From an uncultured Bacteroidia bacterium (GTDB lineage: Bacteria; Bacteroidota; Bacteroidia; Bacteroidales; F082): a DNA stretch of 62,456 bases. The DNA is taken from the NCBI GenBank assembly GCA_902801625.1, contig CADCJI010000019.1, positions 1-62,456 on the forward strand, in the 5' to 3' direction. Under the pieces are notes generated by a model. That model was not told the DNA's origin. It ran no database searches and saw nothing but the letters and a program-made list of their open reading frames with translations. Of this stretch, positions 15,413 to 60,533 are shown in pieces; the first letter of the stretch is position 1, and every line of letters begins with the position of its first letter. A program made the translations under genes and the position numbers.

Positions 15413-15564
15413 AGATTCCCCTTTCGGGGAATGGAGTTAAGCATTATTTATTAGGCGGCGGTTGATAATGCTACAATTAGGTAACAAGTTCTTTCCGCCG
15501 CGGTTAACTAAATAAAAAGTTCTCCATTAACTCCGTTGAATCTTCGATTTCCCGAAGGGAATCT
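15413..15564. repeat. palindromic intergenic element, copy A
   Basis: A 152-bp copy: AGATTCCC-CTTTC-GGGGAATGGAG at the left end, GCGGCGG at 15454-15460, CCGCCGC at 15495-15501, and TTTCCCGAAGGGAATCT at the right end. It begins 10 nt after the HYC_CC_PP stop. Other copies are at 46151, 59244 and 60408. Copies A and B share CCGCCGCGGTTAAC. This copy is the longest and its right arm is split by about 25 extra bases. Confidence 0.85.
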
Positions 15565-15611
15565 CCACTACAAACCCAATTTTGAATTTTGAATCTTAAA
15601 TTTTGAATCCA

Positions 15612-17849
15612 ATGAAAACCAACAAAATAACCCTAATCACCCTAATATTATTCGCCTTCGCCACAAGCGCCTTTGCCCAAGGCTTTATCGAAGGCACCGT
15701 ATATGAAGAAGCCGAAAACGGCCAACGCACTCCATTGCCAGGCGTGAATGTGTACTGGAAAATCGTCAACGAAGGCACCATGACCGATGCCAACGGACAC
15801 TATAAAATACCACTGCACGAGCGCATCGGTTGCCTCGTGTTTAGCTGCATCAGCTATGAGAACGACACGGTTCACCACATGGTGGAACCTGCTCATTACG
15901 ACCATGTCTTCCAAGCCATCCACATGCTCAACGAGGTAGAAATCGCAGCCCGACAAAAAGCTACTTACATTAATCCTATCAAGGCGATTGCCGTCCAGGA
16001 AATTACTTCCGAGAACCTTAAACGAGCAGCTTGCTGCACCCTTGCGGGCAGTTTTGAGAACAATGCATCAGTAGATGTGAATTACAGCGATGCCGTCACG
16101 GGTGCCAAACAAATCCAACTACTCGGTTTGAGTGGCATCTATACCCAGATGATGACTGAAATCATCCCTAATTTCCGTGGTCTAGCTTCGACATTCGGCT
16201 TGAATTATGTACCTGGCAACTGGATGAACGGCATTCAAGTCTCCAAAGGAACTTCCTCGGTAAGAAACGGCTACGAGTCCATCACGGGACAAATCAATGT
16301 GGACTATAAAGAACCCTTGCCCAACAAAAGTGAGAAAGTGTTTTTCAACCTCTATGCCAATTCAATGGCCATGACGGACTTCAACTTCAATGTTAGAACC
16401 AAGGTGGGAAAGCAGGACGGTATTATGCTTTTCGGCCATGTGAGCCATAACCACATGAAGATGGACGGCAACGGCGACTCCTTTATGGATGACCCCATGA
16501 CCACACAATACAATGTCTTCCTGCGCTATAACCATCCTCACACAGGACATTTCGGTTGTAAGTTGGGCATCAAAGCGTTGAAGGAGAATCGACTCGGCGG
16601 ACAAATGGACTTCGACCCAAAACATCGACTCGATGAAGGCTATAATCTCTTTGGCATCGGTATCAACACTGAACGCTATGAAGCTTTCGCCAAATGCGGC
16701 TACCATTTTGACCGTAAGGATACCAGTATCGGACTTCAGCAACAGATGACTTACCATAAAATGGACTCCTACTACGGCCTCACCGACTACAACGCCAACC
16801 AACTTTCCTATTATGCCAATCTGCTTTTCGACTCGTACATTGTCAATGACCATCATACCTATTCCGTGGGTGCCAGTTATACCTACGACAAGTATGATGA
16901 ACACTTGAACGACAGCACTTTACAGCGTGTTGAGCAAGTCCCTGGTGCTTTCGCTGAGTATGTCTTCAACGACAATCACCACTGGAGCGTGATTGCAGGT
17001 TTCCGTACCGACTACAATACCTATTACCAAAAGATGCTCTACACACCCCGCCTGCATGTGCGCTTCAAGACCCACGACGACTTTGCGCTGCGTCTTTCGG
17101 CAGGCAAGGGCTACCGCTCACCTAACATCCTGGCTGAAAACTCCACTATGCTGGCCTCGGCGAGGGTCATCCGTTTCCTTGACACACCGAAGATGGAAGA
17201 CGCTTGGAACTATGGCATTAACCTAACCAAAAGCATCACCTTCGGCTGGCGCGAACTCATCCTTCAAGCAGATTTCTACCGCACCGACTTCATCAACCAA
17301 ATCGTCCTCGACCGCGATGCCGATGCCCATGAAATCCGCATCTATAATTTGGATGGAAAGTCATATTCCAATAGTGCCCAAATCGAGGCCAACTGTGAGA
17401 TTTTCAAAGACTTTGACCTGACCTTGGCTTTCCGCTACAACGATGTGAAAATGACCATCAACGACACCTTGCGTGAGAAGCCTTTCGTCAACCGCTACAA
17501 GGGTTTGATTTCGATGTCGTATGCGCCTGGCACTTGGCAGTTCGACTTCACGACCCAGTTCAATGGCGATAGCCGCGTACCCGACCTGAGTGACAATGCA
17601 ACCGCTATGGCTAACCACCAGAACATCGGTCGCTCGCCATTCTATGTCATCATGAACGCTCAGGTTACGAAGAAGTTGGGCGAACATTGGGAGCTTTATG
17701 TCGGCGGTGAGAACCTGACCAACTACAAGCAGGACTATCCCATCATCTCAGCCAATAACCCGACCAGCGAAGATTTCGATGCCTCAATGGTTTGGGGACC
17801 GCTGAGCGGCATCAGGGGCTATTTGGGCGTTCGGTTCCAAATCAAGTGA
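15612..17849 (+). CDS. TonB-dependent outer-membrane receptor
   Basis: This 745-aa protein has a signal peptide, a CarboxypepD_reg-like beta-sandwich domain (about 25-105, IEGTVYEE to VFSCISYENDT), a plug domain and a C-terminal barrel ending in aromatic-rich strands (GYLGVRFQIK). It imports a ligand across the outer membrane using TonB energy. No SusD partner follows, so a glycan system is unlikely; together with the HYC_CC_PP neighbour, a metal or small chelate is the likelier ligand (inference). The start is ATG 15612. Confidence 0.93.
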   Translation: MKTNKITLITLILFAFATSAFAQGFIEGTVYEEAENGQRTPLPGVNVYWKIVNEGTMTDANGHYKIPLHERIGCLVFSCISYENDTVHHMVEPAHYDHVFQAIHMLNEVEIAARQKATYINPIKAIAVQEITSENLKRAACCTLAGSFENNASVDVNYSDAVTGAKQIQLLGLSGIYTQMMTEIIPNFRGLASTFGLNYVPGNWMNGIQVSKGTSSVRNGYESITGQINVDYKEPLPNKSEKVFFNLYANSMAMTDFNFNVRTKVGKQDGIMLFGHVSHNHMKMDGNGDSFMDDPMTTQYNVFLRYNHPHTGHFGCKLGIKALKENRLGGQMDFDPKHRLDEGYNLFGIGINTERYEAFAKCGYHFDRKDTSIGLQQQMTYHKMDSYYGLTDYNANQLSYYANLLFDSYIVNDHHTYSVGASYTYDKYDEHLNDSTLQRVEQVPGAFAEYVFNDNHHWSVIAGFRTDYNTYYQKMLYTPRLHVRFKTHDDFALRLSAGKGYRSPNILAENSTMLASARVIRFLDTPKMEDAWNYGINLTKSITFGWRELILQADFYRTDFINQIVLDRDADAHEIRIYNLDGKSYSNSAQIEANCEIFKDFDLTLAFRYNDVKMTINDTLREKPFVNRYKGLISMSYAPGTWQFDFTTQFNGDSRVPDLSDNATAMANHQNIGRSPFYVIMNAQVTKKLGEHWELYVGGENLTNYKQDYPIISANNPTSEDFDASMVWGPLSGIRGYLGVRFQIK

Positions 17850-17872
17850 TTGTTTCACGTGGAAAAAAACTG

Positions 17873-17880
17873 TATTTTTG
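17873..17880 (+). promoter_or_regulatory. -7 box of the Sel1 lipoprotein gene
   Basis: TATTTTTG lies 20 nt before ATG 17901, just after the TonB receptor stop. It decides the start against an upstream in-frame ATG at 17850. Confidence 0.65.
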
Positions 17881-17900
17881 CAGTCCAAAACACTCATGAA

Positions 17901-18806
17901 ATGAAAAAATACCTTTTCCTATTCGCTGCGGCCCTGACGATGGTGGCCTGCGGTCAGAAAGACGACAAAAAACAAGAGCAACCCACAGATAAAGACAAAG
18001 AAGTCTATATCCCTCAAGGTGTGCCCGTTGCCCCGATGCAAGAAATCATAGTGCCGGAAAAGGGTGGAGTAGACCCAACCGCTTTAGGCGACCCCAATGC
18101 ACCTGTCTTGAAACTGGAAGAAGGCAAGCCTCTCGATTTCAGCCAACTGCAAGGTGGGGGCATGTCGGTAGGTGACCAAGTGGCCGCACAAATAGATTCC
18201 ATCCGTTACAAGGCCGAGCATGGCGATGCCAAGTACCAGTATGCCTACGGCGTATGCTACGAAAAGGGTTGGGGCGTGGAGCAGGATACGAAAGAGGCTT
18301 TGGCGTGGTACAGAAAAGCGGCTGCACAGGAGAATGGCCCCGCTTATAACTCCATCGGCAATTATTACAGAGAGGGTACTGGGGTGAAAGCCGACGCAAA
18401 CAAGGCCTTTGAGTACTACCAAAAAGGAGCTGAAGTGAAGGATGCTCAGGCTATGCTGAATTTGGGTAACTGTTACTATTTCGGCATGGGAACGGAGAAG
18501 GATACAAATACAGCCGTCAAATGGTGGAAAGAGGCCGCTGAAGCTGGCAATGCCTACGCCATGGCGCAAATGGGCGACTGTTATTATCACGGCCTCGGTG
18601 TGGAAAAAGACTTGGCCAAAGCCATCGAGTACTACACTCCAGCTGCCGACAAGAACATCACGAGCGCTTTATATCAGCTTGGCATCTTGTATTATACAGG
18701 CAACGGTGTTGAGCAAGACCAGACCTACGCTGAGTTGCTCATGCGCAAAGCCAGCGACGGTGGCATGAAAGAAGCGCAGGATTTTTTGGATAGAATCAAG
18801 AAATAA
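17901..18806 (+). CDS. Sel1-repeat lipoprotein
   Basis: This 301-aa protein has a lipobox (TMVACG, Cys17), a charged and proline-rich linker, then five or so Sel1/TPR-like repeats of about 36 residues (for example YAYGVCYEKGWGVEQDTKEA and ALYQLGILYYTGNGVEQDQT). Sel1 repeats form a solenoid for protein binding. The partner is unknown. Confidence 0.9.
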   Translation: MKKYLFLFAAALTMVACGQKDDKKQEQPTDKDKEVYIPQGVPVAPMQEIIVPEKGGVDPTALGDPNAPVLKLEEGKPLDFSQLQGGGMSVGDQVAAQIDSIRYKAEHGDAKYQYAYGVCYEKGWGVEQDTKEALAWYRKAAAQENGPAYNSIGNYYREGTGVKADANKAFEYYQKGAEVKDAQAMLNLGNCYYFGMGTEKDTNTAVKWWKEAAEAGNAYAMAQMGDCYYHGLGVEKDLAKAIEYYTPAADKNITSALYQLGILYYTGNGVEQDQTYAELLMRKASDGGMKEAQDFLDRIKK

Positions 18807-18846
18807 TGGTCAAATTTCATTTGTTAAACATAAAATCTAAACAGCC

Positions 18847-20466
18847 ATGAAGAAAATAGCATTACTTTTCGTTGGACTTGCAGCTTTGCTCTATGGCACT
18901 AAAGCATTTCCTCAGCAGCCTGATTTCCTCTTCGAACAACAATATCCTTTCGAGTGGTCGTACGCGGGCACGCATTCCATTGAAATATGCAATGAGAAGG
19001 GTGGTACGGAGTGCTATTTTGTAACTGCTTGCGACCTTAACACTATTGGATATACGACTGGAGGTAAGGATCTAATGATAAGGGATGATATTCAACCAGC
19101 CAAAGTACTGAAATTATCGCCCGAAGGCGAGTTGCTTGGCGAAATGGCAATGAGCGAAGAAGGCAGGTACTCATCCATCATCAGGCTCTATCACGACCCG
19201 TCCAATCCCAAGTTTTGTCTTGCTGTTGGGACAGTTTTGGACAGCACCTTAAGTTGTATCAAACCTTATTTGGCCAAATTTGACACCAACTTGAATATGA
19301 TTTGGTTGAAGATAATAGAACTTCCCGAAGATTACTGTAATATATTGGGCGGAAGAAGCCTTATGGACAGCCAGGGCGACATTGTCTTCTGTTCTTGGCC
19401 ATTCCATTTTGATCCAAATGGCTATTCCGAATGGTCCAATATGTTGTATCTTCGTCTTTCGTCCGACGGGGAATTGCTAGCAATGGGCGATTCGCCATAC
19501 TACAGTAACTTGTATTGTTTAGCTCAGGGCGACTTGTTTGAGTATACAGATGGCACTGGCGACTATGGGCAGGCCTTTGTAGGCCAGCCTGAAGGATATA
19601 ACGACCCCCCGGTCTTTATTGTTAGGATGAACAGAGACTTTACGGATTTCCAAACAAGAGATTTGGTTGAGAACATAACCCTAGATACAACAGAAGGTAT
19701 CTTAATTAATGACTATTATGCGGAATCGTTTGCGGTTTCGTTGCATGACGGAACAATATACTTGAGTACCAGAGGAGTGCGTTGGGATGGTTGGAGTCCT
19801 GGTTTATATGATGAAGTGATTGTCTCCATGAAATTAGACCAAAACGACAGTATCGTTGCTTTTTCGTTTATTCCTCATGACAACGACAGTGTTCGAACAT
19901 TAGCTTTCTGCCACGGAATGGATGCATCAGACAATGGAGATTTTTTCCTCTGCAATGGTGTTTATGACTCAGAGGCATGGCAGTATCAGGGCGAAATAGA
20001 TGGGCTGAATCGTTTTACCGTGACTAAAACGGATGCCAATACCAACATCATTTGGTCTCGGTCTTATGAGGACGGAGAGCATGTGTTTCAGCCATGCTCA
20101 GTAATGGCAACAAGCGATGAAGGTTGTTTGGTAACAGGACGCTATTGGACATTGGACCAAACAGAGGCTAAATTATTTGTCCTCAAGTTTTTCGCTGACG
20201 GGTCTCTTTCTGTCTCGGAAAAGGAATCGTTTGTGCGCCCCTTTACCTATTATCCCAACCCCGCGAAGGAACAACTGCATATGCAGTTCTCCCCAGATGT
20301 TCAACCCAAGCAAATCGAGCTCTACGACCTGCAAGGCCGCCTAGTGCGCACGCAAAGCAAGGCTTTCGAGAACATCGACATGAGCCAGTTGCCTGTTGGA
20401 ACCTACACGATGCGCGTCACTTTGGAGGACGGGAAGACCTATTCGGACAAGGTGGTGAAGGAATGA
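18847..20466 (+). CDS. large exported protein with T9SS type A sorting domain
   Basis: This 539-aa protein has a signal peptide and a C-terminal sorting domain (YYPNPAKEQLHMQF … IELYDLQGRLV … LPVGTYTMRV … KVVKE) that targets it through the type IX secretion system to the cell surface. The central ~430 residues look like a beta-propeller with repeated SxDGE-type turns, but no named domain was recognised. The substrate or role is unknown. Confidence 0.85.
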   Translation: MKKIALLFVGLAALLYGTKAFPQQPDFLFEQQYPFEWSYAGTHSIEICNEKGGTECYFVTACDLNTIGYTTGGKDLMIRDDIQPAKVLKLSPEGELLGEMAMSEEGRYSSIIRLYHDPSNPKFCLAVGTVLDSTLSCIKPYLAKFDTNLNMIWLKIIELPEDYCNILGGRSLMDSQGDIVFCSWPFHFDPNGYSEWSNMLYLRLSSDGELLAMGDSPYYSNLYCLAQGDLFEYTDGTGDYGQAFVGQPEGYNDPPVFIVRMNRDFTDFQTRDLVENITLDTTEGILINDYYAESFAVSLHDGTIYLSTRGVRWDGWSPGLYDEVIVSMKLDQNDSIVAFSFIPHDNDSVRTLAFCHGMDASDNGDFFLCNGVYDSEAWQYQGEIDGLNRFTVTKTDANTNIIWSRSYEDGEHVFQPCSVMATSDEGCLVTGRYWTLDQTEAKLFVLKFFADGSLSVSEKESFVRPFTYYPNPAKEQLHMQFSPDVQPKQIELYDLQGRLVRTQSKAFENIDMSQLPVGTYTMRVTLEDGKTYSDKVVKE

Positions 20467-20468
20467 TG

Positions 20469-20566
20469 AAGGGGATTGCAAATCCCCAACTCAAAGCCGG
20501 CAGATTGCAAATCCGCCGGAACGAAAACGGAAAAAATGAATGCCGTCAGTCATTGGCGGCATTCAT
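20469..20566. repeat. cluster of three small palindromes after a stop codon
   Basis: GGGGATTGCAAATCCCC (20472-20488) and the similar GGCAGATTGCAAATCCGCC (20501-20519) share the core GATTGCAAATC. The hairpin ATGAATGCCG / CGGCATTCAT (20536-20545, 20557-20566) follows. It has no clear T-run, so it is only a weak terminator candidate between convergent genes. Confidence 0.6.
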
Positions 20567-20607
20567 CATATTCACGAAAGATTTGTGTCAGATTTGTTTC
20601 CTTTACA

Positions 20608-21555
20608 CTACGCCTTCACCAAAGCCGCAGCACCAAGGATGGCCGCGTCGTTGTCGGGCAGTTCGGAAACGCGAACGTCAACGCTGCCGTCGTAAACGAA
20701 GCACAGATGCTTCTTGAACGACTCGCGAGCAGGTTTCAACAACACTTCGCCAGCCTTCACGGGACCGCCCATCAGGAAGATGGCTTCGGGTCCGCTGAAG
20801 GCCACGGCATTAGCCATGGCGATGCCAAGCCAATAGCCCGTCTTTTCAAAGACCTTGATGGCCAAAGGGTCGCCATATTTGGCAGCATCACCCACCATCT
20901 TGCTCGTCAACTCCTCGGGCGGCACTTGTGATAGCGCACCGACATAATCAGGGGTACCTTGTATCATCTCTAGTGCGGTGCGGCGGATGCCCGTAGCGGA
21001 GGTATAGGTCTCCAGACAGCCTTTGCGTCCGCAGCCGCAAGGACGGCCTTCAGGAATGAGGATGGCGTGGCCGAGTTCACCAGCGCCACCCGTCTTGCCG
21101 TGTACCAGCTTGCCGTCAACGACAATGCCGCTACCCACGCCCGTGCCGAGGGTGAACATCACAAAATGCTTCATGCCTTTGGCACCACCGTAGACGAGTT
21201 CGCCGTAAGCCGCGGCGTTGGCGTCGTTGGAGACGACGACAGGCACATCGATATGCGAGTGGAATTCCGAGCCAAGATTGACGATACCCTTGAAGTTGAG
21301 GTTGGTGGCGTTCTCGATGCAGCCCGTATAGTAGTTGCCTGCCGGTGCCGCAATGCCGATGCCCTCGATGGTGTCAACGTGGTTTTCGGCCATTAAGTAT
21401 TTGATTTGTTCGCAGATATCCGCCACATAAAGGGAGGCATCGAAATATTTGTTGGTGGGAAGATTTTTCTTGGTCATCACACGGCCGTCGTCGCGCACCA
21501 GTCCAATGTCGGTGTTGGTGCCGCCAATGTCGATTCCTATGGAATAAGTGTTCAT
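20608..21555 (-). CDS. ROK-family sugar kinase (glucokinase type)
   Basis: This 315-aa protein has the ATP-binding DIGGTNTDIGLV motif (9-20), the catalytic Asp in VVSNDANAAAYGE, the TLGTGVGSGIVVDG phosphate loop and the ROK zinc motif CGCGRKGCLE. It phosphorylates a hexose, most probably glucose. It stands alone on the minus strand. A weak -7-like TATTTTAG lies at 21579-21586. Confidence 0.92.
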   Translation of the reverse strand: MNTYSIGIDIGGTNTDIGLVRDDGRVMTKKNLPTNKYFDASLYVADICEQIKYLMAENHVDTIEGIGIAAPAGNYYTGCIENATNLNFKGIVNLGSEFHSHIDVPVVVSNDANAAAYGELVYGGAKGMKHFVMFTLGTGVGSGIVVDGKLVHGKTGGAGELGHAILIPEGRPCGCGRKGCLETYTSATGIRRTALEMIQGTPDYVGALSQVPPEELTSKMVGDAAKYGDPLAIKVFEKTGYWLGIAMANAVAFSGPEAIFLMGGPVKAGEVLLKPARESFKKHLCFVYDGSVDVRVSELPDNDAAILGAAALVKA

Positions 21556-45279: not shown

Positions 45280-45545
45280 AAAGTATCATAAATAGAGAAG
45301 CGTGTTTTGAATCCCCCCTGCCCCCCTTAAAAGGGGGGGATTCCCCCTCTAAGAGGGGGGCAGGGGGAGTAAAAACAATCTTACTTCTCGCATTAATTCT
45401 TACCACAGTCTTCATATCTTCCTGCAAGACCAAGGAAGTGCCAGGCCGTCGCCGTGCACCGCGCCACTGTAACAGCTGCACCAAGTGGAGCTACACACCA
45501 CAGGAAACCATAGAATACGAACTCTTGCACAACGATGAAGGCTGA
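45276..45545 (+). CDS. small lipoprotein with a repeat-encoded N-terminal extension
   Basis: This 89-aa frame begins with ATG 45276 (ATGA overlap with the EnvC stop). A repeat-encoded segment SPLPPLKGGDSPSKRGAGG (13-31) separates the start from the real signal core VKTILLLALILTTVFISSC (lipobox SSCK). The mature region is Cys-rich (CNSCTKW). It overlaps the SprT-like gene by 11 nt. The unusually long n-region may hinder export; there is no other ATG or GTG after the repeat. Confidence 0.65.
   Translation: MKSIINREACFESPLPPLKGGDSPSKRGAGGVKTILLLALILTTVFISSCKTKEVPGRRRAPRHCNSCTKWSYTPQETIEYELLHNDEG
45310..45370. repeat. CCCCCTTTTAAGGGGG-type double palindrome inside a CDS
   Basis: CCCCCCTTAAAAGGGGGG and CCCCCTCTAAGAGGGGGG are adjacent palindromes, bounded by CCCCCCTGCC and GGCAGGGGGAG that are themselves inverted. 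Confidence 0.9.
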
Positions 45546-46152
45546 AGAACTTCAACTATTGAAACGCTACTTTCCAGAGCCGGCAGTGGCTATGGTGGGT
45601 GAGATGTTCACACAACGCCGTTTCAAACTACATTTCAAGCGACCGCGCAGCTCCAAATTGGGCGATTTCCGTCCGCCACGAACCCCCAACGGCATTTGTT
45701 CCATCACGCTCAATCTGGACTTGAATCCCTATCAAATGCTCATCACCTATGTTCACGAAGTGGCACATTATGATGTGTATCAGCAATATGGATCAAGAAA
45801 AGTGCAGCCCCATGGTCAAGAATGGCAAATGGGTTTTTCCACCTTGTTGCAACCTTTCCTGACTGAAACCATCTTCCCAAAAGAGGTTCTCGCCGCTCTG
45901 CAAAAACATTTGCAACACATCAAAGCCAGCAGCACCGCCGACCAAAACCTTCAAAGGGTATTGCACCAATACGACAAGAACCCCGAAAATGTGACCACGG
46001 TGGAGAGCCTTCCCGAGGGAGCCCGATTCGTGTTGAAAAACGGCCTCATCTTCCAAAAAGGGGAAAAGCAACACACCCGCTACAAATGCTATTGTGAAAG
46101 CAACGGACGCTGGTATTTTGTGTCAGCTTTGGCGGAAGTTCGGAGGATTTAG
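45535..46152 (+). CDS. SprT-like zinc metallopeptidase domain protein
   Basis: This 205-aa protein has HEVAHYDVYQQYGSRKVQPHGQEW, an HExxH motif with a downstream His, in the SprT-like family. The C-terminal half has a RYKCYCESNGRWYFVS segment. Family relatives act on DNA-protein crosslinks or are uncharacterised. Its TAG stop (46150-46152) is shared with the first bases of repeat copy B. Confidence 0.88.
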   Translation: MKAEELQLLKRYFPEPAVAMVGEMFTQRRFKLHFKRPRSSKLGDFRPPRTPNGICSITLNLDLNPYQMLITYVHEVAHYDVYQQYGSRKVQPHGQEWQMGFSTLLQPFLTETIFPKEVLAALQKHLQHIKASSTADQNLQRVLHQYDKNPENVTTVESLPEGARFVLKNGLIFQKGEKQHTRYKCYCESNGRWYFVSALAEVRRI

Positions 46153-46277
46153 ATTCCCTAGGGAATGGAGGTTTATCCATATTTATAAGCGGCGGTGGAT
46201 AGAGTTTACATAACATAAACGCCACAAACCGCCGCGGTTAACAAAACAAGTAATAACTCCATTCCCAAAGGGAATCT
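46151..46277. repeat. palindromic intergenic element, copy B
   Basis: AGATTCCC-TAG-GGAATGGAG at the left, GCGGCGGT at 46189-46196, ACCGCCGC at 46228-46235, CTCCATTCCC-AAA-GGGAATCT at the right (127 bp). It begins inside the stop codon of the SprT-like gene and ends 43 nt before the next promoter. Confidence 0.9.
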
Positions 46278-51782: not shown

Positions 51783-54700
51783 ATGTATACCATCTATACT
51801 GACCCTTTGCACCGCATCGCATACGCCACCGATGCGTCAGCTTATCGTGAAATACCGCAAGGTGTGACCTTTCCTGAAAACGAGCAGGATATTGTCTATC
51901 TGATCGAAACAGCCCACGAGCGCAACACACACCTTATCCCAAGGGCAGGAGGTACTTCCATTGCAGGCCAAGTGGTGGGAAGTGGCATTGTCGTTGACAT
52001 CAGCAAACATTTCAAGAAGATACTGGAAATCAACAAGGAAGAACGCTGGGCAAGGGTTCAACCCGGAGTCGTACTCGATGAACTGAACCTTGCTCTAGAG
52101 CCATACGGACTTTTCTTCAGCCCTGAGACCTCCACCAGTAACCGCTGTTGTATCGGCGGCATGTTTGGCAATAACTCTTGCGGTTCACATTCCTTGGTTT
52201 ATGGCAGCACGCGTCATCATGTGTTGGAAGCCCGCGGTGTGCTCTGCGATGACAGCGTTGAGGTATTCAAAACCTATACCATCAAAGAACTGGAAGAGCG
52301 TTTTGGCAACCGTTTTTGGGAAACCGACATTCAATGTCATTCCGTGCGAAGGCCTAAAGAGGAAAGGGAGGAATCTATTGAATGTCGGTTTCAAAAGGAA
52401 TCATTAATCCAAAACATCTACGCTCAACTTATCCGTTGGGCCTTGGATGAAAACACAGTTCATCTGATAGAAGAAAACTATCCCGACAAGAGCCTGCGCC
52501 GTCGTTCTTGTGGTTACGCCATCGATGAAGTCATTGAAGACCTACACAATACGGCCAAACCACTTGAAGAACGAACCATTAATCTATGCAAAGTGCTGGC
52601 GGGTAGTGAAGGTACCTTGGCTTTCATTACGGAAATCAAAGTTGACCTCGACCCTTTGCCGCCCAAGGAGAAAATGGTGGTCTGCGCCCATTGCGACACA
52701 CTGCAAAAAAGTTTTCTAGGTAACCTTGTCGCCTTGAAATTCAATCCATCAGCAGTGGAATTAATGGACCGCAACATCTTGGAACTCAGCAAACAGAATG
52801 TCGAGCAACAGAAAAACCGCTTTTTTGTCCAAGGCGACCCTGCCGCCATCCTTATCATCGAATTGCGAGGTGAAACCCGTGAAGAAATCGATGCTGTAGC
52901 TGACCAACTTGAAAAGGCATTAATCGAAAACGAGGAGCACTTGGTTTACGCTTGTTCAAGAGTTTACGGTTCAGAAATCAGCAAGGTATGGAGTCTGCGC
53001 AAGGCGGGCTTGGGTCTACTCACCGGAATGAAAGGCGATGCCAAACCTATTGGTGTTATCGAAGACACGGCTGTGACACCCGAGAAACTGCCAGCCTACA
53101 TGGCTGACTTTGCGAAAATGCTCGAAGAACTTGACCTGAGTTGTGTCTATCATGCCCATATCAGTACTGGCGAGTTGCATCTGCGGCCTATCATCAATAT
53201 TAAGGAGGAAGAAGGCAAACGCAAGTTTCGTGAAGTGGCTTATGAAACGGCCTTATTGGTCAAGAAATACAAAGGCTCGCTCAGCGGAGAACATGGAGAT
53301 GGTCGCTTGCGCGGTGAGTTTATCCAGTTGCTTTATGGCGACCAAGTCTATGCCTTGATGCAAGACCTGAAAAAGTGTTGGGATCCGCTGCAAGTCTTCA
53401 ATCTGCACAAGATTGTTGACACGTTGCCCATGGACAGCATGTTGCGCTTTGATGTTGGACAGCAATATGCTATCGAAAAGGAACTGGGAAGGTCGGCCCT
53501 TCGACAGGCTCAGGGACCTAAGGGCTCTGGAACCTATTATAACTGGAAGGCCGCATTTGATGAATGCAAGGTGGAAGGCGCTACCGGTGCCAAAAATCAG
53601 CTTCATGCCTTGATGTGCAGCATCGAGCAATGCAATGGTGCCGGCGATTGCCGCAAATCGAACCTCATTGGTGGCACACTTTGTCCAGCCTTCAAAGTGA
53701 GTGGCGATGAGACCAAGGCTACCCGTGCGCGTGCCAATGTGCTCCGTGAAATCTTGACAAGAGGGTGGGAGAGCGATGCTTTTACTCAAGCTTTAAACAA
53801 GGATAAAAGCATATTAAAATCGGAGGAGCTGGCCGAGGTTTTAGACAGCTGCCTGGCTTGCAAAGGTTGCCGCAGCGAGTGTCCCAGCAATGTCGACATG
53901 ACTCGTCTGCGTTCTGAAATCCTACAACAAAAGTACGACAAAAGCGGCATGCCTTTGCGCTCATTTGCTGTGTCGAGGATGGCTACGGTGGAACAATTTG
54001 GACATATCGTTTGGCCGCTATACAATTTGTTTGCCTCATGGAAACTCTCTTCTGACATCATCAAGCACATCATCAAGTTTGCAACCGAAAGAGACATCCC
54101 GACCCTTAGCCGCGTCACCATGCGGAAAGCCGTGCAACGGGAATGCCGCAAACAGCATGGCAAAGCCACCAAAGGTAAAGTTTATCTATTTGCTGACGAA
54201 TTCACAAACTTCCAAGAAGCGGAGCTTGGCTTGACTTTCGCAAAATTGCTTTTACGCCTAGGCTATAAAGTGGAAATCCCAAAACATGTGGAAAGCGGTC
54301 GTGCCGCCATCTCGAAAGGCAACCTGAAACTGGCCAAAAAGTTTGCCTTGAAAAATGTCAATCTGTTGAAAGACAAAATTTCAGAAGAAACACCTTTGGT
54401 CGGCATTGAGCCTTCTTGCATCCTCAGTTTCCGCGACGAGTACCCCGATTTGGTGCCTGCCGAACTTCGCTCCCAAGCCCAACAATTGGGCCGTAATGCC
54501 CTACTTTTTGATGAGTTTATCATGCGTGAATTTGCAGCAGGTCGTATTTCTTCAGATGATTTCAAAACTGATGCTGTAGAAATCTGGCTCCATGGTCATT
54601 GCCACCAGAAAGCCTTGGTGGGAACGGAGAAGACGGTACAAACTTTCAAACTACTCTCAGGCGCCAAAGTGCATGTCATCCCAAGTGGTTGTTGCGGTAT

Positions 54701-54920
54701 GGCAGGTTCATTCGGTTACGAGAAAGAGCATTACAAGACTTCGTTGGCCATTGGTGAGATGGTACTCTTCCCGACCATTAGAAAAGCCATCGAAAACAAC
54801 ACAAACATCACACCTGTGATAGTTTCAGCTCCTGGCACTTCCTGCCGTCAGCAAATCCTCGATGGCACTGGCGTTCATGCCGTCCATCCCGTTGAAATCC
54901 TCTATCGTTGGGCGAAATAA
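51783..54920 (+). CDS. large FAD-linked oxidase with Fe-S and CCG domains
   Basis: This 1045-aa enzyme has an N-terminal FAD-binding domain (PRAGGTSIAGQ, GNNSCGSHSLVYGSTRHHV), a FAD-linked oxidase C-terminal domain (YHAHISTGELHLRP, SGEHGDGRLRGEF), a ferredoxin-like part (CNGAGDCRKS, CLACKGCRSECPSNVD) and a C-terminal CCG segment (GHCHQKALVG, SGCCGMAGSFGYEKEHY). It is of the YdiJ/D-2-hydroxyacid dehydrogenase type and oxidises a D-2-hydroxy acid, passing electrons to the quinone pool. A CCTTCGAC-type repeat is inserted in frame in the linker between the FAD and Fe-S parts (about residues 570-585). It starts 6 nt after the dehydratase although unrelated to glycans. Confidence 0.92.
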   Translation: MYTIYTDPLHRIAYATDASAYREIPQGVTFPENEQDIVYLIETAHERNTHLIPRAGGTSIAGQVVGSGIVVDISKHFKKILEINKEERWARVQPGVVLDELNLALEPYGLFFSPETSTSNRCCIGGMFGNNSCGSHSLVYGSTRHHVLEARGVLCDDSVEVFKTYTIKELEERFGNRFWETDIQCHSVRRPKEEREESIECRFQKESLIQNIYAQLIRWALDENTVHLIEENYPDKSLRRRSCGYAIDEVIEDLHNTAKPLEERTINLCKVLAGSEGTLAFITEIKVDLDPLPPKEKMVVCAHCDTLQKSFLGNLVALKFNPSAVELMDRNILELSKQNVEQQKNRFFVQGDPAAILIIELRGETREEIDAVADQLEKALIENEEHLVYACSRVYGSEISKVWSLRKAGLGLLTGMKGDAKPIGVIEDTAVTPEKLPAYMADFAKMLEELDLSCVYHAHISTGELHLRPIINIKEEEGKRKFREVAYETALLVKKYKGSLSGEHGDGRLRGEFIQLLYGDQVYALMQDLKKCWDPLQVFNLHKIVDTLPMDSMLRFDVGQQYAIEKELGRSALRQAQGPKGSGTYYNWKAAFDECKVEGATGAKNQLHALMCSIEQCNGAGDCRKSNLIGGTLCPAFKVSGDETKATRARANVLREILTRGWESDAFTQALNKDKSILKSEELAEVLDSCLACKGCRSECPSNVDMTRLRSEILQQKYDKSGMPLRSFAVSRMATVEQFGHIVWPLYNLFASWKLSSDIIKHIIKFATERDIPTLSRVTMRKAVQRECRKQHGKATKGKVYLFADEFTNFQEAELGLTFAKLLLRLGYKVEIPKHVESGRAAISKGNLKLAKKFALKNVNLLKDKISEETPLVGIEPSCILSFRDEYPDLVPAELRSQAQQLGRNALLFDEFIMREFAAGRISSDDFKTDAVEIWLHGHCHQKALVGTEKTVQTFKLLSGAKVHVIPSGCCGMAGSFGYEKEHYKTSLAIGEMVLFPTIRKAIENNTNITPVIVSAPGTSCRQQILDGTGVHAVHPVEILYRWAK
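53492..53535. repeat. CCTTCGAC-type repeat inside the oxidase CDS
   Basis: GGCCCTTCGACAGGCTCAGG followed by GACCTAAGGGCTCTGGAACC, read in frame as ALRQAQGPKGSGT. It belongs to the same family as 33910 and 37397. Confidence 0.85.
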
Positions 54921-54930
54921 TCCAACAATT

Positions 54931-54960
54931 TTGGCGTTCTATGAAAAAGGACTATCTTTG
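54931..54960 (+). promoter_or_regulatory. promoter of the DUF3298 lipoprotein gene
   Basis: TTG 54931-54933 and TATCTTTG 54953-54960, 19 nt apart, lie 30 nt before ATG 54991. Confidence 0.75.
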
Positions 54961-54990
54961 CCTCGTTAAACCATAATAATATTAGTCATT

Positions 54991-55725
54991 ATGAAAAGGC
55001 TATTCTTCTCCATCACAATGCTTCTATTGGTCATTGCTGGTTGTAACACAAAAGAGTCAAATGAAGTAGACGTTGAACCATATACTTTGAATGACAGCTT
55101 GTTCATTGAAAGTGAGTATGGCGATGGGTATTCCTATTTCAACGTCAGCCTCGATTTGCCTGTCACCAACAACAAAACCTTGCGCCAAAACATCCTTCAT
55201 TGGATGCTTTCTGACGAGACAGAAGACCATGTCAGCTATCTTGAGACAATGAAAGACAATTTCTTTGAAGAAGACGGTAGCGAACCCAGGTCGAACTATG
55301 AAGAAAACTTCAGCTTGTCGGAACAAACTGATGAGTATGTCACCTATACCACCGAAGGATTCCTTTATTCGGGCGGTGCTCATGAAATGCCTTGGTACAA
55401 CGGAACGACTTTCAGCAAGATAGATGGTAGCATTGTTGGCTACGACCTGTTCGAAGATCCAGAACAACTCATTAAGATTATTGCAGAAAATATTGAAAAC
55501 CAATATTTTTCAAAATATGTAGAAGATGATTTCTACTTTGAGCACGAAGATATAACCACGCTGCCTGAGAATGAACCTTGGATAGAGACCGACAGTGTTG
55601 TGTTTTGTTACCAACCTTACGAAATCGCCGCTTTTGCCGCGGGAATGCCTTTGTGTAAGATTGCGTTATCCGACCTAAAACCCTATCTGAGCGAAAAAGG
55701 AAAAATGTTTCTCAAAGACAATTAA
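54991..55725 (+). CDS. DUF3298/DUF4163-type lipoprotein
   Basis: This 244-aa lipoprotein (VIAGCN, Cys18) has the two-part RsiV-like fold: YTLNDSLFIESEYGDG…FNVSLDLP and the GGAH motif followed by TFSKIDGSIV and the DUF3298 end. Such proteins bind cell-wall or lysozyme-like ligands in some relatives, but the role here is unknown. It has its own promoter and sits 6 nt before manC. Confidence 0.85.
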   Translation: MKRLFFSITMLLLVIAGCNTKESNEVDVEPYTLNDSLFIESEYGDGYSYFNVSLDLPVTNNKTLRQNILHWMLSDETEDHVSYLETMKDNFFEEDGSEPRSNYEENFSLSEQTDEYVTYTTEGFLYSGGAHEMPWYNGTTFSKIDGSIVGYDLFEDPEQLIKIIAENIENQYFSKYVEDDFYFEHEDITTLPENEPWIETDSVVFCYQPYEIAAFAAGMPLCKIALSDLKPYLSEKGKMFLKDN

Positions 55726-55731
55726 ACACTA

Positions 55732-56784
55732 ATGAACAACTATTGCATCATTATGGCAGGCGGCATCGGTAGCCGTTTTTGGCCCCTCAGCAAGGACAAC
55801 TATCCGAAGCAATTCCTCGATATCTTAGGTACAGGAAAGAGCTTTATCCGCAGCACTTACGAGCGATTCAGCCCAGTCATCCCCGATGAGAACTTCCTTG
55901 TGGTCACCAACAAGGCCTACAAACAACTCGTTTTGGAGCATTTACCTATGTTGCGACCCGATCAAGTGCTTTGTGAGCCTGCGCGACGCAACACGGCTCC
56001 TTGCATTGCCTATGCAGCCTACCATATCCAAAGTCGCTGCCAAGATGCCAATATTGTCGTCACACCCGCCGACCATTTGGTAACTAATGAAATGGAATTT
56101 CAGCGCATTATTCGATTAGGTTTCGACTTCTTGGCGAAAAACCAAAATTCCTTGATGACCATCGGTATCAAGCCGAGTCGACCAGAAACGGGTTATGGCT
56201 ATATTCAAGTTCCTAAACAAAACACATTGCCTGAAGTAGTAAAGGTCGAAATGTTCAAGGAAAAACCCGATTACGATACGGCCGTGAAGTTCGTTGCCGA
56301 AGGCAATTTCTTCTGGAACAGCGGCATCTTCCTCTGGACTTTGGACGGCATTATGCAGGCGTTCAAGCAATATCTGCCTGAGATGGTTGAAATCTTTGAA
56401 AAAGGCATCTATAACTTCGGCACACCCGAGGAACAAGACTTCATCAACGACCACTTTGTGGATTGCCCCAACATCAGTATCGACTACGGCGTGATGGAAA
56501 AGTCGCCCAATACCTTCACCATCCCTGCCGACTTTGGATGGAGCGACATCGGTACTTGGGGTTCGCTGTTTACTCACGCCAAAAAAGATGACAACGGCAA
56601 TGCCAAACGTGGCAAGGTGGTCTCAGTCGACAATCGGAATACCATTATTAATATAGAGGAAGGCACCGAAGCCATAGTGGAAGGTTTGGAAGACTATTTG
56701 GTGGCTTATCGCGACCATTCACTCCTCGTGTGCAAGCTCAAGGATGAGCAACAGATCAAAGTTTGGATTGAAGGATTAAAATAA
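55732..56784 (+). CDS. manC: mannose-1-phosphate guanylyltransferase
   Basis: This 350-aa enzyme has GGIGSRFWPLSKDNYPKQFL (the nucleotidyltransferase signature), TPADHLV, and the C-terminal FGWSDIGTWGSL segment. It makes GDP-mannose from mannose-1-phosphate and GTP for surface polysaccharides. It lacks the fused isomerase domain of ManC-type bifunctional enzymes. Confidence 0.95.
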   Translation: MNNYCIIMAGGIGSRFWPLSKDNYPKQFLDILGTGKSFIRSTYERFSPVIPDENFLVVTNKAYKQLVLEHLPMLRPDQVLCEPARRNTAPCIAYAAYHIQSRCQDANIVVTPADHLVTNEMEFQRIIRLGFDFLAKNQNSLMTIGIKPSRPETGYGYIQVPKQNTLPEVVKVEMFKEKPDYDTAVKFVAEGNFFWNSGIFLWTLDGIMQAFKQYLPEMVEIFEKGIYNFGTPEEQDFINDHFVDCPNISIDYGVMEKSPNTFTIPADFGWSDIGTWGSLFTHAKKDDNGNAKRGKVVSVDNRNTIINIEEGTEAIVEGLEDYLVAYRDHSLLVCKLKDEQQIKVWIEGLK

Positions 56785-56795
56785 AACTGCATCCC

Positions 56796-57551
56796 GTGGA
56801 AAATCAGCCGCTTGTATCGGTCATTATGCCATGCTACAACATGGAGAAGTTTATCGCTTACACGATAGAATCGGTGCAACGGCAAACCTATACCCATTGG
56901 GAACTTCTCATCGTTGACGATGCTTCAACCGACAAAACGGCTGATATTGTTAAAAGTCACCAAAATCAAGACGATCGGATTCAATTTTATGTCAAGCCCA
57001 AGCACTCAGGCATCGCTGACACCCGAAACCAATGCATTAAAATGGCCAAAGGCCTTTTTTTGGCTTTTCTGGATTCCGATGACCTTTGGCACCCTGAAAA
57101 ACTGGAACAGCAGTTGCAATTTATGATGGAAAGGAATATTGGCTTCAGTTACTCAAGCTACGATTGTGTGGACGAAATAGGCAATCCTTTGGAAAAAATA
57201 GTCAAGGCCATAGGCAATCTTGACTATGACGCATACATGCACAACACCATCATTGGCTGTTCAACCGTAATGATTGATACCACGATCATCAAAGAAGTCG
57301 TTGTGCCCAACTTTCGTACCAGCGAAGACTCTGCAACCTGGCTCAACATCCTGAAAAAAGGCTTCATTGCCTACGGAATAGATTCTTGTTTGACTTCCTA
57401 TCGTATCCGCCAGCATTCAGCCAGTTCCAACAAGCTGAAGGCCGCTTCCGATTTGTGGAGAGTGTATCGGAAACAAGAAAAACTGTCTCTATTCAAAGCC
57501 ATCGGTTGTTTTGTTAGTTATGCCTTCCACGCCGTAAAGAAACGCCTGTGA
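56796..57551 (+). CDS. family 2 glycosyltransferase
   Basis: This 251-aa GT-A enzyme has VSVIMPCYNMEKFIAYTIES, the DDAST loop and a DXD-like FLDSDDLWHPEK. It adds a sugar to a lipid-linked or growing polysaccharide. The start is GTG 56796. It overlaps the next gene by four bases. Confidence 0.92.
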   Translation: MENQPLVSVIMPCYNMEKFIAYTIESVQRQTYTHWELLIVDDASTDKTADIVKSHQNQDDRIQFYVKPKHSGIADTRNQCIKMAKGLFLAFLDSDDLWHPEKLEQQLQFMMERNIGFSYSSYDCVDEIGNPLEKIVKAIGNLDYDAYMHNTIIGCSTVMIDTTIIKEVVVPNFRTSEDSATWLNILKKGFIAYGIDSCLTSYRIRQHSASSNKLKAASDLWRVYRKQEKLSLFKAIGCFVSYAFHAVKKRL

Positions 57552-58354
57552 TGAACGGATATGCCCTATATCGAAAGGCCTGGCGGTCTGAAGGAGCACC
57601 TCATTGCGAAACCCGATTGGAAGAAAAGGAATGGAAGGCTCTTTTACAACAAGGCGGTTTGCTGGTCAGAAACACCTACGAGTTTGACTGTCAGGAAGAA
57701 ACCTCTTTTTGGTATGTCATCAAAGACCAATTTGAAGGCTTGGAAAACTTGCCGTCGAGAGTGCGCAACAAGATCCGTCATGCATTCAATAGTTTTGAAT
57801 ACCGACTTATTCCTTTTGACACTTTAAAGGAAAACGGTTATCAAATTATTCAAGAGACCTATGCGGATTATGCCGTTCATGATAGAGAAATGAACCAAAA
57901 GGTCTTCATGGAATACTTGGACCAATGTCAAAAACAGCACTTTGACTATTGGGGCATCTTCGACAAGGAGACACAACAAATGGTTGGGTTCTGCACCGTG
58001 ACTTTATGGGATCAATGCTGCGAATATGGTGTGACAGGCATCCTTTCAAAATACAAGAAAGGAAGCTACTATCCCTATTACGGTTTATATCAGTACTTAA
58101 ACCAGTATTATCTTGAAAAACAGCAATTTAAATATGTGAGCGACAGTGCCCGAACCATCACCGAACACTCGCAGATCCAAGAATATCTCATTCAAAACTT
58201 CAACTTTCGTAAAGCCTATTGCCAATTGGAGGTTCATTACCGTTTGTGGATGAAGTTGACAGTCAAAATGCTGTACCCATTCAGAAAAATCATACCTTTG
58301 CAGCGCGTTAAGGCAATTCTCAACATGGAGGCCATGCAGCGTGGAGAAAAATAA
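57548..58354 (+). CDS. GNAT/FemAB-like acyltransferase of unknown substrate
   Basis: This 268-aa protein (MMNGYALYRKAWRS…) has SRVRNKIRHAFNSFEYRLI and GVTGILSKYKKGSYYPYYGLYQYLNQYYLEK, a fold-like pattern of GNAT-type acyltransferases without a named family. It lies between a glycosyltransferase and a priming transferase, so it may modify a nucleotide sugar. The call is tentative. Confidence 0.55.
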   Translation: MMNGYALYRKAWRSEGAPHCETRLEEKEWKALLQQGGLLVRNTYEFDCQEETSFWYVIKDQFEGLENLPSRVRNKIRHAFNSFEYRLIPFDTLKENGYQIIQETYADYAVHDREMNQKVFMEYLDQCQKQHFDYWGIFDKETQQMVGFCTVTLWDQCCEYGVTGILSKYKKGSYYPYYGLYQYLNQYYLEKQQFKYVSDSARTITEHSQIQEYLIQNFNFRKAYCQLEVHYRLWMKLTVKMLYPFRKIIPLQRVKAILNMEAMQRGEK

Positions 58355-58943
58355 ACACAAAATAGGATTCTTCTTCAAGTGGTGCTTCGATCGTATCGTG
58401 GCACTAATTGGACTTATTGTGCTGTTTCTGCCTTTGCTGGTCATCGGCATTCTCATCAAAATTGACTCAAAAGGGCCTATGTTCTTTATGCAAAAACGCA
58501 TTGGAAAGGACGGCAAGCCATTCAGAATCTGCAAGTTCAGAACCATGCATCATCAATCGGAAGGCGATACGGTCACTACAGCCGATGACCCTCGCATCAC
58601 GCGCATGGGCCATTGGCTACGCCACAGTAAGGTTGACTGCCTTACCGAGTTGGTCAATGTTTTTATCGGACAAATGAGCTTTGTTGGTCCACGCCCCGAT
58701 GTGCCCGGCTATGCCGACCAGCTGAAAGGTGATGACCGTCGCATTCTCCAGCTCCGCCCAGGCATTACCGGCCCGGCAAGTATCAAGTACCGTGACGAAG
58801 AAGAACTGCTCGCCCAACAAACTGATCCAAAGGCTTATAACGACAATGTCATTTGGCCTGACAAAGTGAAAATCAACTTGGATTATTTGGACAACTGGAG
58901 CTTTTTCGGTGATATCAAGTTGATTTTCAAGACCGTGTTCTAA
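58341..58943 (+). CDS. priming polyprenyl-phosphate sugar-phosphate transferase
   Basis: This 200-aa protein has one N-terminal membrane segment and the family core: RICKFRTMH, a DPRITRMGHWLRHSKVD block, QMSFVGPRPDVPGY and RPGITGPASIKYRDEE. It loads the first sugar-phosphate onto undecaprenyl phosphate and starts a surface glycan. The start is GTG 58341, overlapping the previous gene by 14 bases. Confidence 0.93.
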   Translation: MEKNKHKIGFFFKWCFDRIVALIGLIVLFLPLLVIGILIKIDSKGPMFFMQKRIGKDGKPFRICKFRTMHHQSEGDTVTTADDPRITRMGHWLRHSKVDCLTELVNVFIGQMSFVGPRPDVPGYADQLKGDDRRILQLRPGITGPASIKYRDEEELLAQQTDPKAYNDNVIWPDKVKINLDYLDNWSFFGDIKLIFKTVF

Positions 58944-59032
58944 TTCCAGCCCCATAGGAAAGACAGCCTAAGAGCAGGTGATGTATGTCCTTGCTTTTTG
59001 CGTGTGGTCAGTGGCAAAACTACCGACTACAT

Positions 59033-59068
59033 AAAAAAACCCCATAGAATCGGGGAGAAACTATGAGG
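59033..59068 (-). terminator. minus-strand terminator next to the tRNA remnant
   Basis: On the minus strand CCTCATAG pairs with CTATGGGG (one mismatch), followed by a T-run (A-run 59033-59039 on the plus strand). It would end a transcript reading through the tRNA remnant at 59102. Confidence 0.65.
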
Positions 59069-59101
59069 CCAAAAAATTAATAACATGAAACATAAAAATT
59101 G

Positions 59102-59163
59102 CGCCCCCTTCAGGACTTGAACCTGAGACCCCCTGATTAACAGTCAGATGCTCTGACCAACTG
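59102..59163 (-). pseudogene. 5'-truncated tRNA-Asn(GTT) remnant
   Basis: The minus strand reads CAGTTGGTCAGAGC (D-arm 3' part), ATCTGACTGTTAATCAG (anticodon arm with GTT), GGTCTCAGGTTCAAGTCCTGA (T-arm, here split at the loop) and AGGGGGC-G (acceptor 3' strand and discriminator). The expected GCCCCCTTAGCTC 5' end is absent; unrelated sequence (AAAAGATTG) stands there. It cannot fold as a full tRNA and looks like a leftover of recombination into a tRNA gene. Confidence 0.75.
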
Positions 59164-59243
59164 CAATCTTTTTCGGATAATTTTTTTCAAATATTTTATA
59201 TCTAACTGATAATCAATATGAAAATTTAGTCACTTTTAATATA

Positions 59244-59370
59244 GATTCCCAAAGGGAATGGCGTTTTTTTCTTTTAGTTATATGCGGCGGTTAAGAACGT
59301 TTACGACCTTTACATTTTTTCAACCGCCGCTTTTTAGCTGCAAAACATTCTCCATTCCCCAAGGGAATCT
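59244..59370. repeat. palindromic intergenic element, copy C
   Basis: AGATTCCC-AAA-GGGAATGG at the left, GCGGCGGTT at 59284-59292, AACCGCCGC at 59322-59330, CTCCATTCCC-CAA-GGGAATCT at the right (127 bp). It ends 9 nt before the next -7 box. Confidence 0.9.
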
Positions 59371-59379
59371 CTTTTTTCT

Positions 59380-59387
59380 TACCTTTG
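59380..59387 (+). promoter_or_regulatory. -7 box of the PfkB kinase gene
   Basis: TACCTTTG, 41 nt before ATG 59429. Confidence 0.65.
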
Positions 59388-59428
59388 CACAAATTTTGAA
59401 TCTTGAATATTAAATCCTTGAATCCACA

Positions 59429-60403
59429 ATGAAAAAAATACTCGGAATAGGAAGCGCATTGGTCGACATCCTGACACAGATTCCCAATGAACAAATCCTC
59501 AATGAATTGAACCTGCCCAAAGGTAGTATGACTTACGTCGATGCCCAAACTTCGATTGAAATTGGCAAAAAAATAGCTCATCTTGGCAATCAAATGGCTT
59601 CAGGCGGCTCGGCAGCCAATACCATGAGCGGTCTGGCCCAACTTGGCGTCGAAGCGGGATTTCTCAGCAAGATCGGCAAGGATGAGGTAGGCGAATTCTT
59701 TGCAAAACAGATGACCGAAACCCATGTCAAGCCTCTGATGCTTACGAGTTATACCCCTTCGGGGCGCGTTCAAGCTCTTGTCACTGCCGACGGTGAACGC
59801 ACCTTTGCTACCTGCCTCGGAGCCGCAGCTGAAATGTGTGCCGATGACATCCAGCCTGAACTCCTCCAAGGTTGGGACATCTTCTATGTGGAAGGCTATC
59901 TCGTTGCCAACCCAACAATGCTCAGAAAAGCCATCGAAACTGCCAAGGCCCAAGGTATGACCATCGCTATCGACTTGGCCAGCTACAATGTGGTGGAAGA
60001 GAGCCGCGACTTCTTGCTTGAACTCATCAATAACTACGTCGACATCGTGTTTGCTAACGAAAAAGAAGCCTTTGCCCTTACAGGCATGGAACCCGAAGCC
60101 GCATTGGATTACATCGCTGAACGTTGCGACATCGCTGTAGTGAAAGTGGGAGCCAAGGGTGCCTTTGTAAAACGTGGCAACGAAATTGTCACCATCCCAC
60201 CTATGAAGGCTGATGTGGTTGACACTACTGGCGCTGGCGACATGTGGGCAGCAGGTTTCCTTGCTGGACTCGTCAAAGGCGAAAACTTGCAAAAATGCGG
60301 TATGATGGGTGCCATCGTGGCCAAAAACATCATCGAAGTGATGGGTGCCAAGATGGATGATGAAAGGTGGGGTAATATTCATGAAGCCATAGCATCACTA
60401 TAA
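59429..60403 (+). CDS. PfkB-family carbohydrate/nucleoside kinase
   Basis: This 324-aa kinase has GGSAANTMSGLAQLG (about 55-69), and the C-terminal catalytic motif DTTGAGDMWAAGFLAGL with the Asp base. It is of the ribokinase/adenosine-kinase branch. The substrate is not clear. A second promoter-linked palindrome (copy D) lies directly after its stop. Confidence 0.92.
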   Translation: MKKILGIGSALVDILTQIPNEQILNELNLPKGSMTYVDAQTSIEIGKKIAHLGNQMASGGSAANTMSGLAQLGVEAGFLSKIGKDEVGEFFAKQMTETHVKPLMLTSYTPSGRVQALVTADGERTFATCLGAAAEMCADDIQPELLQGWDIFYVEGYLVANPTMLRKAIETAKAQGMTIAIDLASYNVVEESRDFLLELINNYVDIVFANEKEAFALTGMEPEAALDYIAERCDIAVVKVGAKGAFVKRGNEIVTIPPMKADVVDTTGAGDMWAAGFLAGLVKGENLQKCGMMGAIVAKNIIEVMGAKMDDERWGNIHEAIASL

Positions 60404-60407
60404 TGGG

Positions 60408-60533
60408 AGATTCCCTCGGGAATGGAGTTTATGGTTCTGTTAATTAGCGGCGGTTTGTAGCGTTTACGGTTTGTATACGTTACATACCGCCGCATTATAC
60501 ATACTAACACGCTTCCATTCCCGCAGGGAATCT
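60408..60533. repeat. palindromic intergenic element, copy D
   Basis: AGATTCCC-TC-GGGAATGGAG at the left, GCGGCGGTTTGTAGCGTTTA at 60447-60466, and its partner TACGTTACATACCGCCGC at 60476-60493, CCATTCCC-GCA-GGGAATCT at the right (126 bp). The inner stem is 18 of 21 paired, the best of the four copies. It lies 4 nt after the kinase stop. Confidence 0.9.

Follow-up and report, generated by a model that had tools for sequence, protein, structure and literature searches.

Dimers of repetitive extragenic palindromic (REP) sequences are intergenic hairpins arranged as inverted pairs, mostly 20–100 bp apart, whose spacers may have complementary ends; in Di Nocera et al. 2013 (PMC3733652) they are described as lying just past the 3' ends of open reading frames (ORFs), as supplying TAG stop codons through the REP termini, as being tandemly reiterated and as having a patchy distribution. 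In Bacteroidetes, Y1 enzymes of the TnpA-REP subclass 2.6 and its relatives are described as being flanked by atypical secondary structures (Quentin et al. 2018, PMC6006769). Here we describe a family of palindromic elements of about 126 bases (F1) which has so far been found in one uncultured Bacteroidales genus. Four copies lie in a stretch of 62,456 nucleotides (contig CADCJI010000019.1, C19), called the window in the following, which belongs to the draft genome of an uncultured Bacteroidia bacterium (GCA_902801625.1, 3.58 Mb, 84% complete). This genome is labelled G000, the genomes compared with it are G021, G123 and G111, and L-numbers denote loci of relatives. Orthologous copies of the element have been inverted in place at two sites and their end hairpins change slowly, both of which are new facts; in addition, there is an allele reduced to a single hairpin, tandem arrays differ between species, and copies are located just behind stop codons. 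From these sequence comparisons we lean, with modest confidence, towards a REP-dimer-like family, i.e. one resembling bacterial interspersed mosaic elements (BIMEs), that would be restricted to the genus, non-autonomous and devoid of GTAG/CGTC tags, and whose end hairpins would be kept at transcript ends.

Each F1 element consists of two hairpins in inverted orientation (AGATTCCC-n-GGGAATGG) and thus has terminal inverted repeats, which enclose a spacer of about 90 bases with a GCGGCGG/CCGCCGC stem. In an alignment of 30 copies each end hairpin reads ATTCCC-loop-GGGAAT with the feet AG (5') and GG, often GGAG (3'), so that the REP-like unit can be written 5'-CC-ATTCCC-loop-GGGAAT-CT-3', and hardly any variation is seen in the ends or in the inner GC stem. 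The linkers (about 20 nt) and the core interior are near random among the copies of G000, their identity being 0.51–0.53 vs 0.45–0.47 for shuffled sequences in 39 copies (6 of the 45 copies could not be segmented). A sequence-only reading of the window had described four copies with such hairpin ends and an inner GC stem, and all four lie where it placed them, copy C beginning at 59243; the conserved GTTTA-type centre that it also reported is missing from copy A and varies genome-wide. Within the window the pattern GCGGCGGT-n-ACCGCCGC matches three times (copies B, C and D), and it was not found in any of 100 shuffles.

For 26 of the 45 G000 copies, the two flanks were searched as a pair in G021 and G123. 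The site holds an element in 23 of 26 cases in G123 and in 9 of 26 in G021, one of the latter being degenerate, as judged by reading the matches together with the model hits. At C1:337550 the interior of G000 agrees with that of G123 at an identity of 0.94 when inverted and 0.60 when compared directly, and with that of G021 at 0.93 and 0.58, respectively. At C15:52109 it is G123 that is inverted relative to G000 (0.91 vs 0.54 direct), G021 having the same orientation as G000. The 99th percentile of identity among unrelated copies is 0.75, below the inverted-match values, and separate scoring placed flanks and interior on opposite strands at both sites, whereas in two controls they fell on one strand. 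Altogether, inversions were seen at two sites, in 2 of 25 ortholog comparisons with G123 and 1 of 11 with G021.

Other changes at orthologous sites concern the number of hairpins. At C1:328310, G021 keeps a single hairpin, AGATTCCC-TA-GGGAATCC, between conserved flanks; further sites in G021 contain other palindromes or small indels. Of 20 named relatives, 8 have a full element at the site of copy C (by model), 6 have a solo or half hairpin there (by eye) and 6 have neither; the site of copy D is occupied in 5 of the 20. A single pair of genomes cannot tell a deletion product from a pre-insertion state; since solo hairpins are widespread at the copy-C site, a deletion is favoured. Tandem arrays differ as well: where G000 has one copy, G123 has four units of about 162 nt, and a neighbouring site has one copy in G123 and two in G000.

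The post-stop site between pfkB and a gene for an elongation factor G (EF-G)-like protein holds different palindromic repeats in different relatives (L078–L097), or nothing at all. The repeats found there are the F1 element, a second palindrome family of the genus (F2), a CACAAAAC...GTTTTGTG type and a GAATGC(T/A)GAAT type. F2, seen at L169:253, L175:248, L139:3747, L015:797, L080:5997 and L091:5996, has a long locus-specific stem and an apical ATGTC-ATTCC-n-GGAAT-CTAT hairpin that resembles an end of the F1 element.

The inversions raise the question of a recombination-site cassette, in which the end hairpin would be the site of a dedicated recombinase that carries out programmed inversion or deletion and is shared by F2. 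The two inverted sites, the solo-hairpin allele of G021 and the slow end stems described below would fit this, as would the apical segment of F2 downstream of pfkB, which has opposite orientations in L080 and L091. The same segment, however, has one orientation in L169 and L175, with the flanks in register; inversion is rare at this divergence, no recombinase gene is linked, and, because the interior is near-palindromic, flipping would alter little. The inversions could also have arisen without a dedicated enzyme, since short inverted repeats allow generic slippage and template switching. We therefore hold programmed recombination to be quite unlikely. Scarcer still is our belief in an extended form of it, in which the hairpin would be the non-polar site of a dedicated enzyme, pairs of sites common to several palindrome families, F1 and F2 among them, would flip or delete their cargo, and the host would depend on the hairpins at transcript ends, so that selection would keep the site and the cargo would drift.

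Substitutions are some five to ten times less frequent in the end stems than in the spacers, a contrast that is weakened by one stricter filter. In detail, 8 of 704 end-stem positions and 87 of 1654 positions of linkers plus interior are substituted in 22 pairs with G123 (p = 5e-7), and 3 of 320 vs 73 of 738 in 10 pairs with G021 (p = 6e-9). Three inverted pairs and copy A are left out of this test; in the fuller set of 24 G123 and 11 G021 pairs the end stems show 10/769 and 5/353 changes. The loops beside the end stems changed at 13/133 (G123) and 8/64 (G021) positions.

The copies might nevertheless be neutral remnants of an extinct element, the constraint being only apparent and due to ascertainment or to hairpin-templated correction. 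Ascertainment in G000 can hide up to half of the divergence, i.e. account for a factor of two, and when only pairs with at least 0.85 interior identity are kept the G123 contrast shrinks into that range (7/576 vs 39/1363, p = 0.03; p = 0.42 for less than half the rate), although this filter itself biases the spacers downward. Copies A and C are also decaying, and in some relatives a degenerate hairpin stands alone at the copy-C site. On the other side, in the 22 G123 and 10 G021 pairs the end stems change at less than half the rate of the spacers (p = 0.005 and 8e-5, respectively), this stays so in G021 under the same filter (1/256 vs 35/591, p = 0.004), and templated correction would keep the pairing rather than particular letters. 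Neutral decay thus appears rather unlikely to us.

As regards the paired substitutions in the stems to which the sequence-only reading had pointed, the end stems do lengthen together, C4 going with G4 ([[63,2],[7,8]] over 80 ends, p = 8e-6), whereas the RNAalifold covariation term of +0.06 is about zero and gives no support for covarying stems. One inner-stem pair shows a C-G/U-A exchange in 7 sequences. The self-pairing of the core is slightly above that of shuffled partners (6.80 vs 6.17, sd 0.29), and the mean identity of the interior to its own reverse complement is 0.58. The core palindrome was consequently rejected as a covarying stem, as its pairing is barely above shuffled, the RNAalifold term is +0.06 and, between orthologs, the inner GC stem does not change more slowly than the interior. 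With core self-complementarity this weak and RNAalifold finding almost no covariation, the evidence for covariation is limited to the co-lengthening, and the structural case therefore rests on the end stems.

The family reaches far beyond the window. In the whole of G000 the strict two-end pattern gave 28 forward and 30 reverse matches, and a reversed-pattern control gave none. A covariance model made from 30 copies found 90 matches on both strands, which correspond to 45 copies, all spanning model positions 1–127. The 69 exact ends in G000 all fall within these copies (positions compared by eye), and an exact solo hairpin of the searched pattern does not occur in this genome. Copy number is patchy, with about 25 copies in G021, 45 in G000 and at least about 75 in G123 (at least 150 both-strand matches).

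A covariance search of other Bacteroidales, as proposed in the sequence-only reading, extended the family within the genus and no further. With E values up to 0.001, the model matched 48 of 99 genomes of the genus, some of them with one weak match, and 20 of the 46 good-quality ones; 24 genomes from other genera of the order gave no match. A sample across the order comprised 393 genomes from 206 genera, five of the genomes being of the genus; only G000 and G111, both of the genus, matched, and none of the 388 non-genus genomes did; the 8 best candidates per genome were scored here under stricter filters, so that weak or decayed copies may be missed. Searches for the exact pattern in viral contigs gave no match, nor did plasmids. 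The 20 relatives reached via pfkB are uncultured Bacteroidales or Bacteroidia, a ruminant stomach being named as source for four, and genomes with RUG in their names are taken by us to be rumen genomes. The sequence-only reading had not recognised a described family; Rfam gave no match, either for the whole window at the gathering score or for five loci at E values up to 0.1, and a literature search revealed no paper that we recognised as describing it.

None of the 45 copies (90 ends) lies inside a called ORF of at least 80 amino acids, as defined by a simple ORF finder. Among the 43 copies with a called gene on each side, the genes are co-directional in 26 cases, convergent in 10 and divergent in 7. 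A stop codon is found within 12 nt of 31 of the 47 stop-facing ends, 10 of which overlap it, compared to 1 of 41 start-facing ends that lie as near to a start codon (Fisher 7e-11). In addition, an outward TANNTTTG motif, presumably promoter-like, occurs within 250 nt of 27 of the 90 ends and the reversed motif near 7 of 90. Stop proximity and outward motifs together suggest that the copies sit at transcription-unit boundaries. The element as part of the downstream promoter was rejected, as the 27 ends that have such a motif lie at anything between 7 and 236 nt from it.

Such a placement, in many cases with a stop codon upstream and a promoter-like motif downstream, might also be expected of a structured cis-acting RNA, i.e. 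an attenuator, leader or terminator whose origin is not mobile. The slow end stems would suit it, as would the very stable predicted folds (z −7.0 to −11.3 in all 7 copies folded), even though any palindrome would give these. Opposed to it are the 51 of 99 genus genomes in which no match was found, the tandem arrays and the inversions, the 7 copies between divergent genes and the lack of an Rfam match, which together leave us with little faith in a non-mobile origin.

With respect to mobility, the sequence-only reading saw no obvious target-site duplication, and this holds for all 45 copies, observed values being close to shuffled ones even when shifted ends are included. It had also considered a miniature inverted-repeat transposable element (MITE). 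In its classical form this would be a deletion derivative of a DDE transposon with terminal inverted repeats of about 22 bp, mobilised in trans by a full-length relative. In agreement with this suggestion, the ends are defined and form terminal inverted repeats, the length is near-fixed and the copy number is patchy. The missing target-site duplication at the junctions tested does not, and neither does the absence of a larger parent element with exact ends from G000, which follows from the confinement of all 69 exact ends to the 45 short copies; that search covered G000 only, an incomplete draft. Furthermore, there is no burst of near-identical dispersed copies, the linkers of paralogous copies being near random (identity 0.51–0.52 vs 0.45–0.46 shuffled). 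A classical MITE is thus unlikely.

The partner that had been proposed, a REP-associated tyrosine transposase (RAYT), was looked for among Y1 transposase genes, which were found in at least 70 of the 99 genus genomes and of which G000 has five Y1_Tnp matches, four of them full-length. Part of the Y1 matches of the genus was read, namely 53 loci at 51 distinct places, and none carries the element; up to 350 nt from the gene, an ATTCC-n-GGAAT hairpin is likewise absent from all of them. The covariance model gave 11 weak matches at these loci (15–21 bits, best E 0.0013) with spans of 48–75 nt vs about 126; those in L226 and L232, which were inspected individually, overlap other hairpins. A RAYT partner among the genes read was therefore rejected, the 53 loci having other hairpins or none. 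Against the NCBIfam model REP_Tyr_transpos the four full-length G000 proteins score 21–32 bits at a cutoff of 80, which none of them passes; the scores lean towards the IS200-type TnpA, with one of the four above the cutoff of that model. Diverse Y1 genes at L028, L030, L219, L224, L226, L238 and L251, many of them flanked by a hairpin of their own (GCATCCC-n-GGGATGC, GCGTGTC-n-GACACGC and GAACCGC-n-GCGGTTC among them), look like several RAYT/REP-type pairs.

We infer the mobilising enzyme and the host role of the REP-dimer-like family from sequence. The family would have been propagated in the form of single-stranded hairpins, mobilised in trans by an enzyme that is probably of the HUH/Y1 type. 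The two ends, each a palindrome in its own right, are repeats of each other in the inverted as well as the direct sense, so that recombination or replication slippage between them could lead to inversion or to deletion down to one hairpin. Copies would persist chiefly where transcription units end; there the end hairpins would be retained, most simply as transcript-end structures that serve mRNA 3' protection, attenuation or insulation and can be read from either strand. Several observations weigh against this proposal: none of the Y1 loci read has the element; the co-occurrence of Y1 genes with it, which speaks for the proposal (among the matches listed, all 24 genomes with 12 or more element matches have them vs 26 of 51 without the element), is perhaps due to genome size or common descent; decay is seen in copies A and C and in several orthologs of copy C; the G123 contrast shrinks under the identity filter; in orthologs the rate of the inner GC stem is not significantly below that of the interior; and, unlike in REPs, there is no GTAG or CGTC tag at the foot of the hairpin.

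The copies of the window and the gene used for ortholog comparison are listed in Table 1.

Table 1. Copies of the F1 element in the window and the pfkB gene between two of them
Feature	Position	Strand	Remarks
Copy A	15413-15564		left hairpin 15413-15434; inner GC stem arms ~15455-15461 and ~15495-15501
Copy B	46151-46277		inner stem region 46189-46235
Copy C	59243-59370		inner stem region 59284-59330
Copy D	60408-60533		inner stem region 60447-60493
PfkB-type sugar kinase gene	59429-60403	+	between copies C and D, outside the element; used for ortholog comparison

The name PfkB is that of the sequence-only reading and was not re-tested by a family search. All four copies had been placed right after stop codons, which is correct for three. 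Copy A, whose right end is broken up by about 22 additional nt and which is the lowest-scoring window copy in the covariance model search (57–70 bits), starts 10 nt past a stop codon; copy D begins 4 nt past the stop of pfkB, and 121 nt separate it from the EF-G-like gene (60655-); and copy B, an ortholog of which is present in both G123 and G021, overlaps a stop by 2 nt, its first two bases finishing the TAG of the upstream ORF 45535-46152. For copy C the nearest upstream stop is 299 nt away. Its right end is followed after a gap of 9 nt by the TANNTTTG motif, the pfkB start lies 58 nt downstream, and on its other side there is a tRNA-Asn-like stretch (59099-59163, minus strand, recognised by eye) which is apparently truncated. 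ARAGORN found no tRNA in the window, and relatives such as L078 have a longer sequence at this place; the shortening is either a deletion or an assembly collapse.

Compared with window positions 60380-60680, L086 shows 93% identity in the interior of copy D, whereas the pfkB proteins are 84% identical and the interior of copy C is unrelated (0.57), suggesting that the EF-G-side segment recombined between species. L080 and L084, two pfkB loci with differing flanks, come from one bin of a metagenome-assembled genome, SRR12081298_bin.45, which may for this reason be mixed.

Orthologous copies of a bacterial palindromic repeat can thus be traced as they invert, shrink to one hairpin, expand into arrays and decay, and the part that is retained, the end hairpins, can be told apart from the spacer that drifts. 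An old question about REP-like repeats, selfish debris or functional structures at transcript ends, thereby becomes testable by genome comparison. The host Bacteroidales are uncultured and poorly known, and several palindrome families meet at a single post-stop site across 20 relatives.

Among the known repeats of similar build, the enterobacterial repetitive intergenic consensus (ERIC), or intergenic repeat unit (IRU), is an intergenic palindrome of about 127 bp. By description it is alike in length, palindromy and intergenic location and comes from an unrelated lineage. Correia, NEMIS and other bacterial MITEs are small and intergenic, with terminal inverted repeats and short target duplications; the F1 element shares the first three features and lacks the target duplication, so that of the earlier MITE-like suggestion the terminal inverted repeats remain, and the target duplication and a parent element in G000 are missing. 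As in the Bacteroidetes systems covered by PMC6006769, the genus has diverse Y1 genes, many with flanking hairpins; none of the examined Y1 genes is flanked by the F1 hairpin.

REP dimers and BIMEs turned out to be the best of the options named in the sequence-only reading, in view of the inverted hairpins with a structured spacer, missing target-site duplication, post-stop position, arrays and patchiness of the F1 family, even though tags are absent and no RAYT could be tied to the family. F1 elements differ from REP dimers in being about 126 nt long with a near-constant inner GC stem and in having no exact lone end in G000, and for their in-place inversion no counterpart is mentioned in the available portion of PMC3733652. 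With the dimers described there they share the inverted pairing, the structured spacer, the post-stop position, the provision of stop codons, the tandem reiteration and the patchiness. As these shared features stand against the missing GTAG/CGTC tag, membership is unproven, and the element is therefore described as one that works like a REP dimer.

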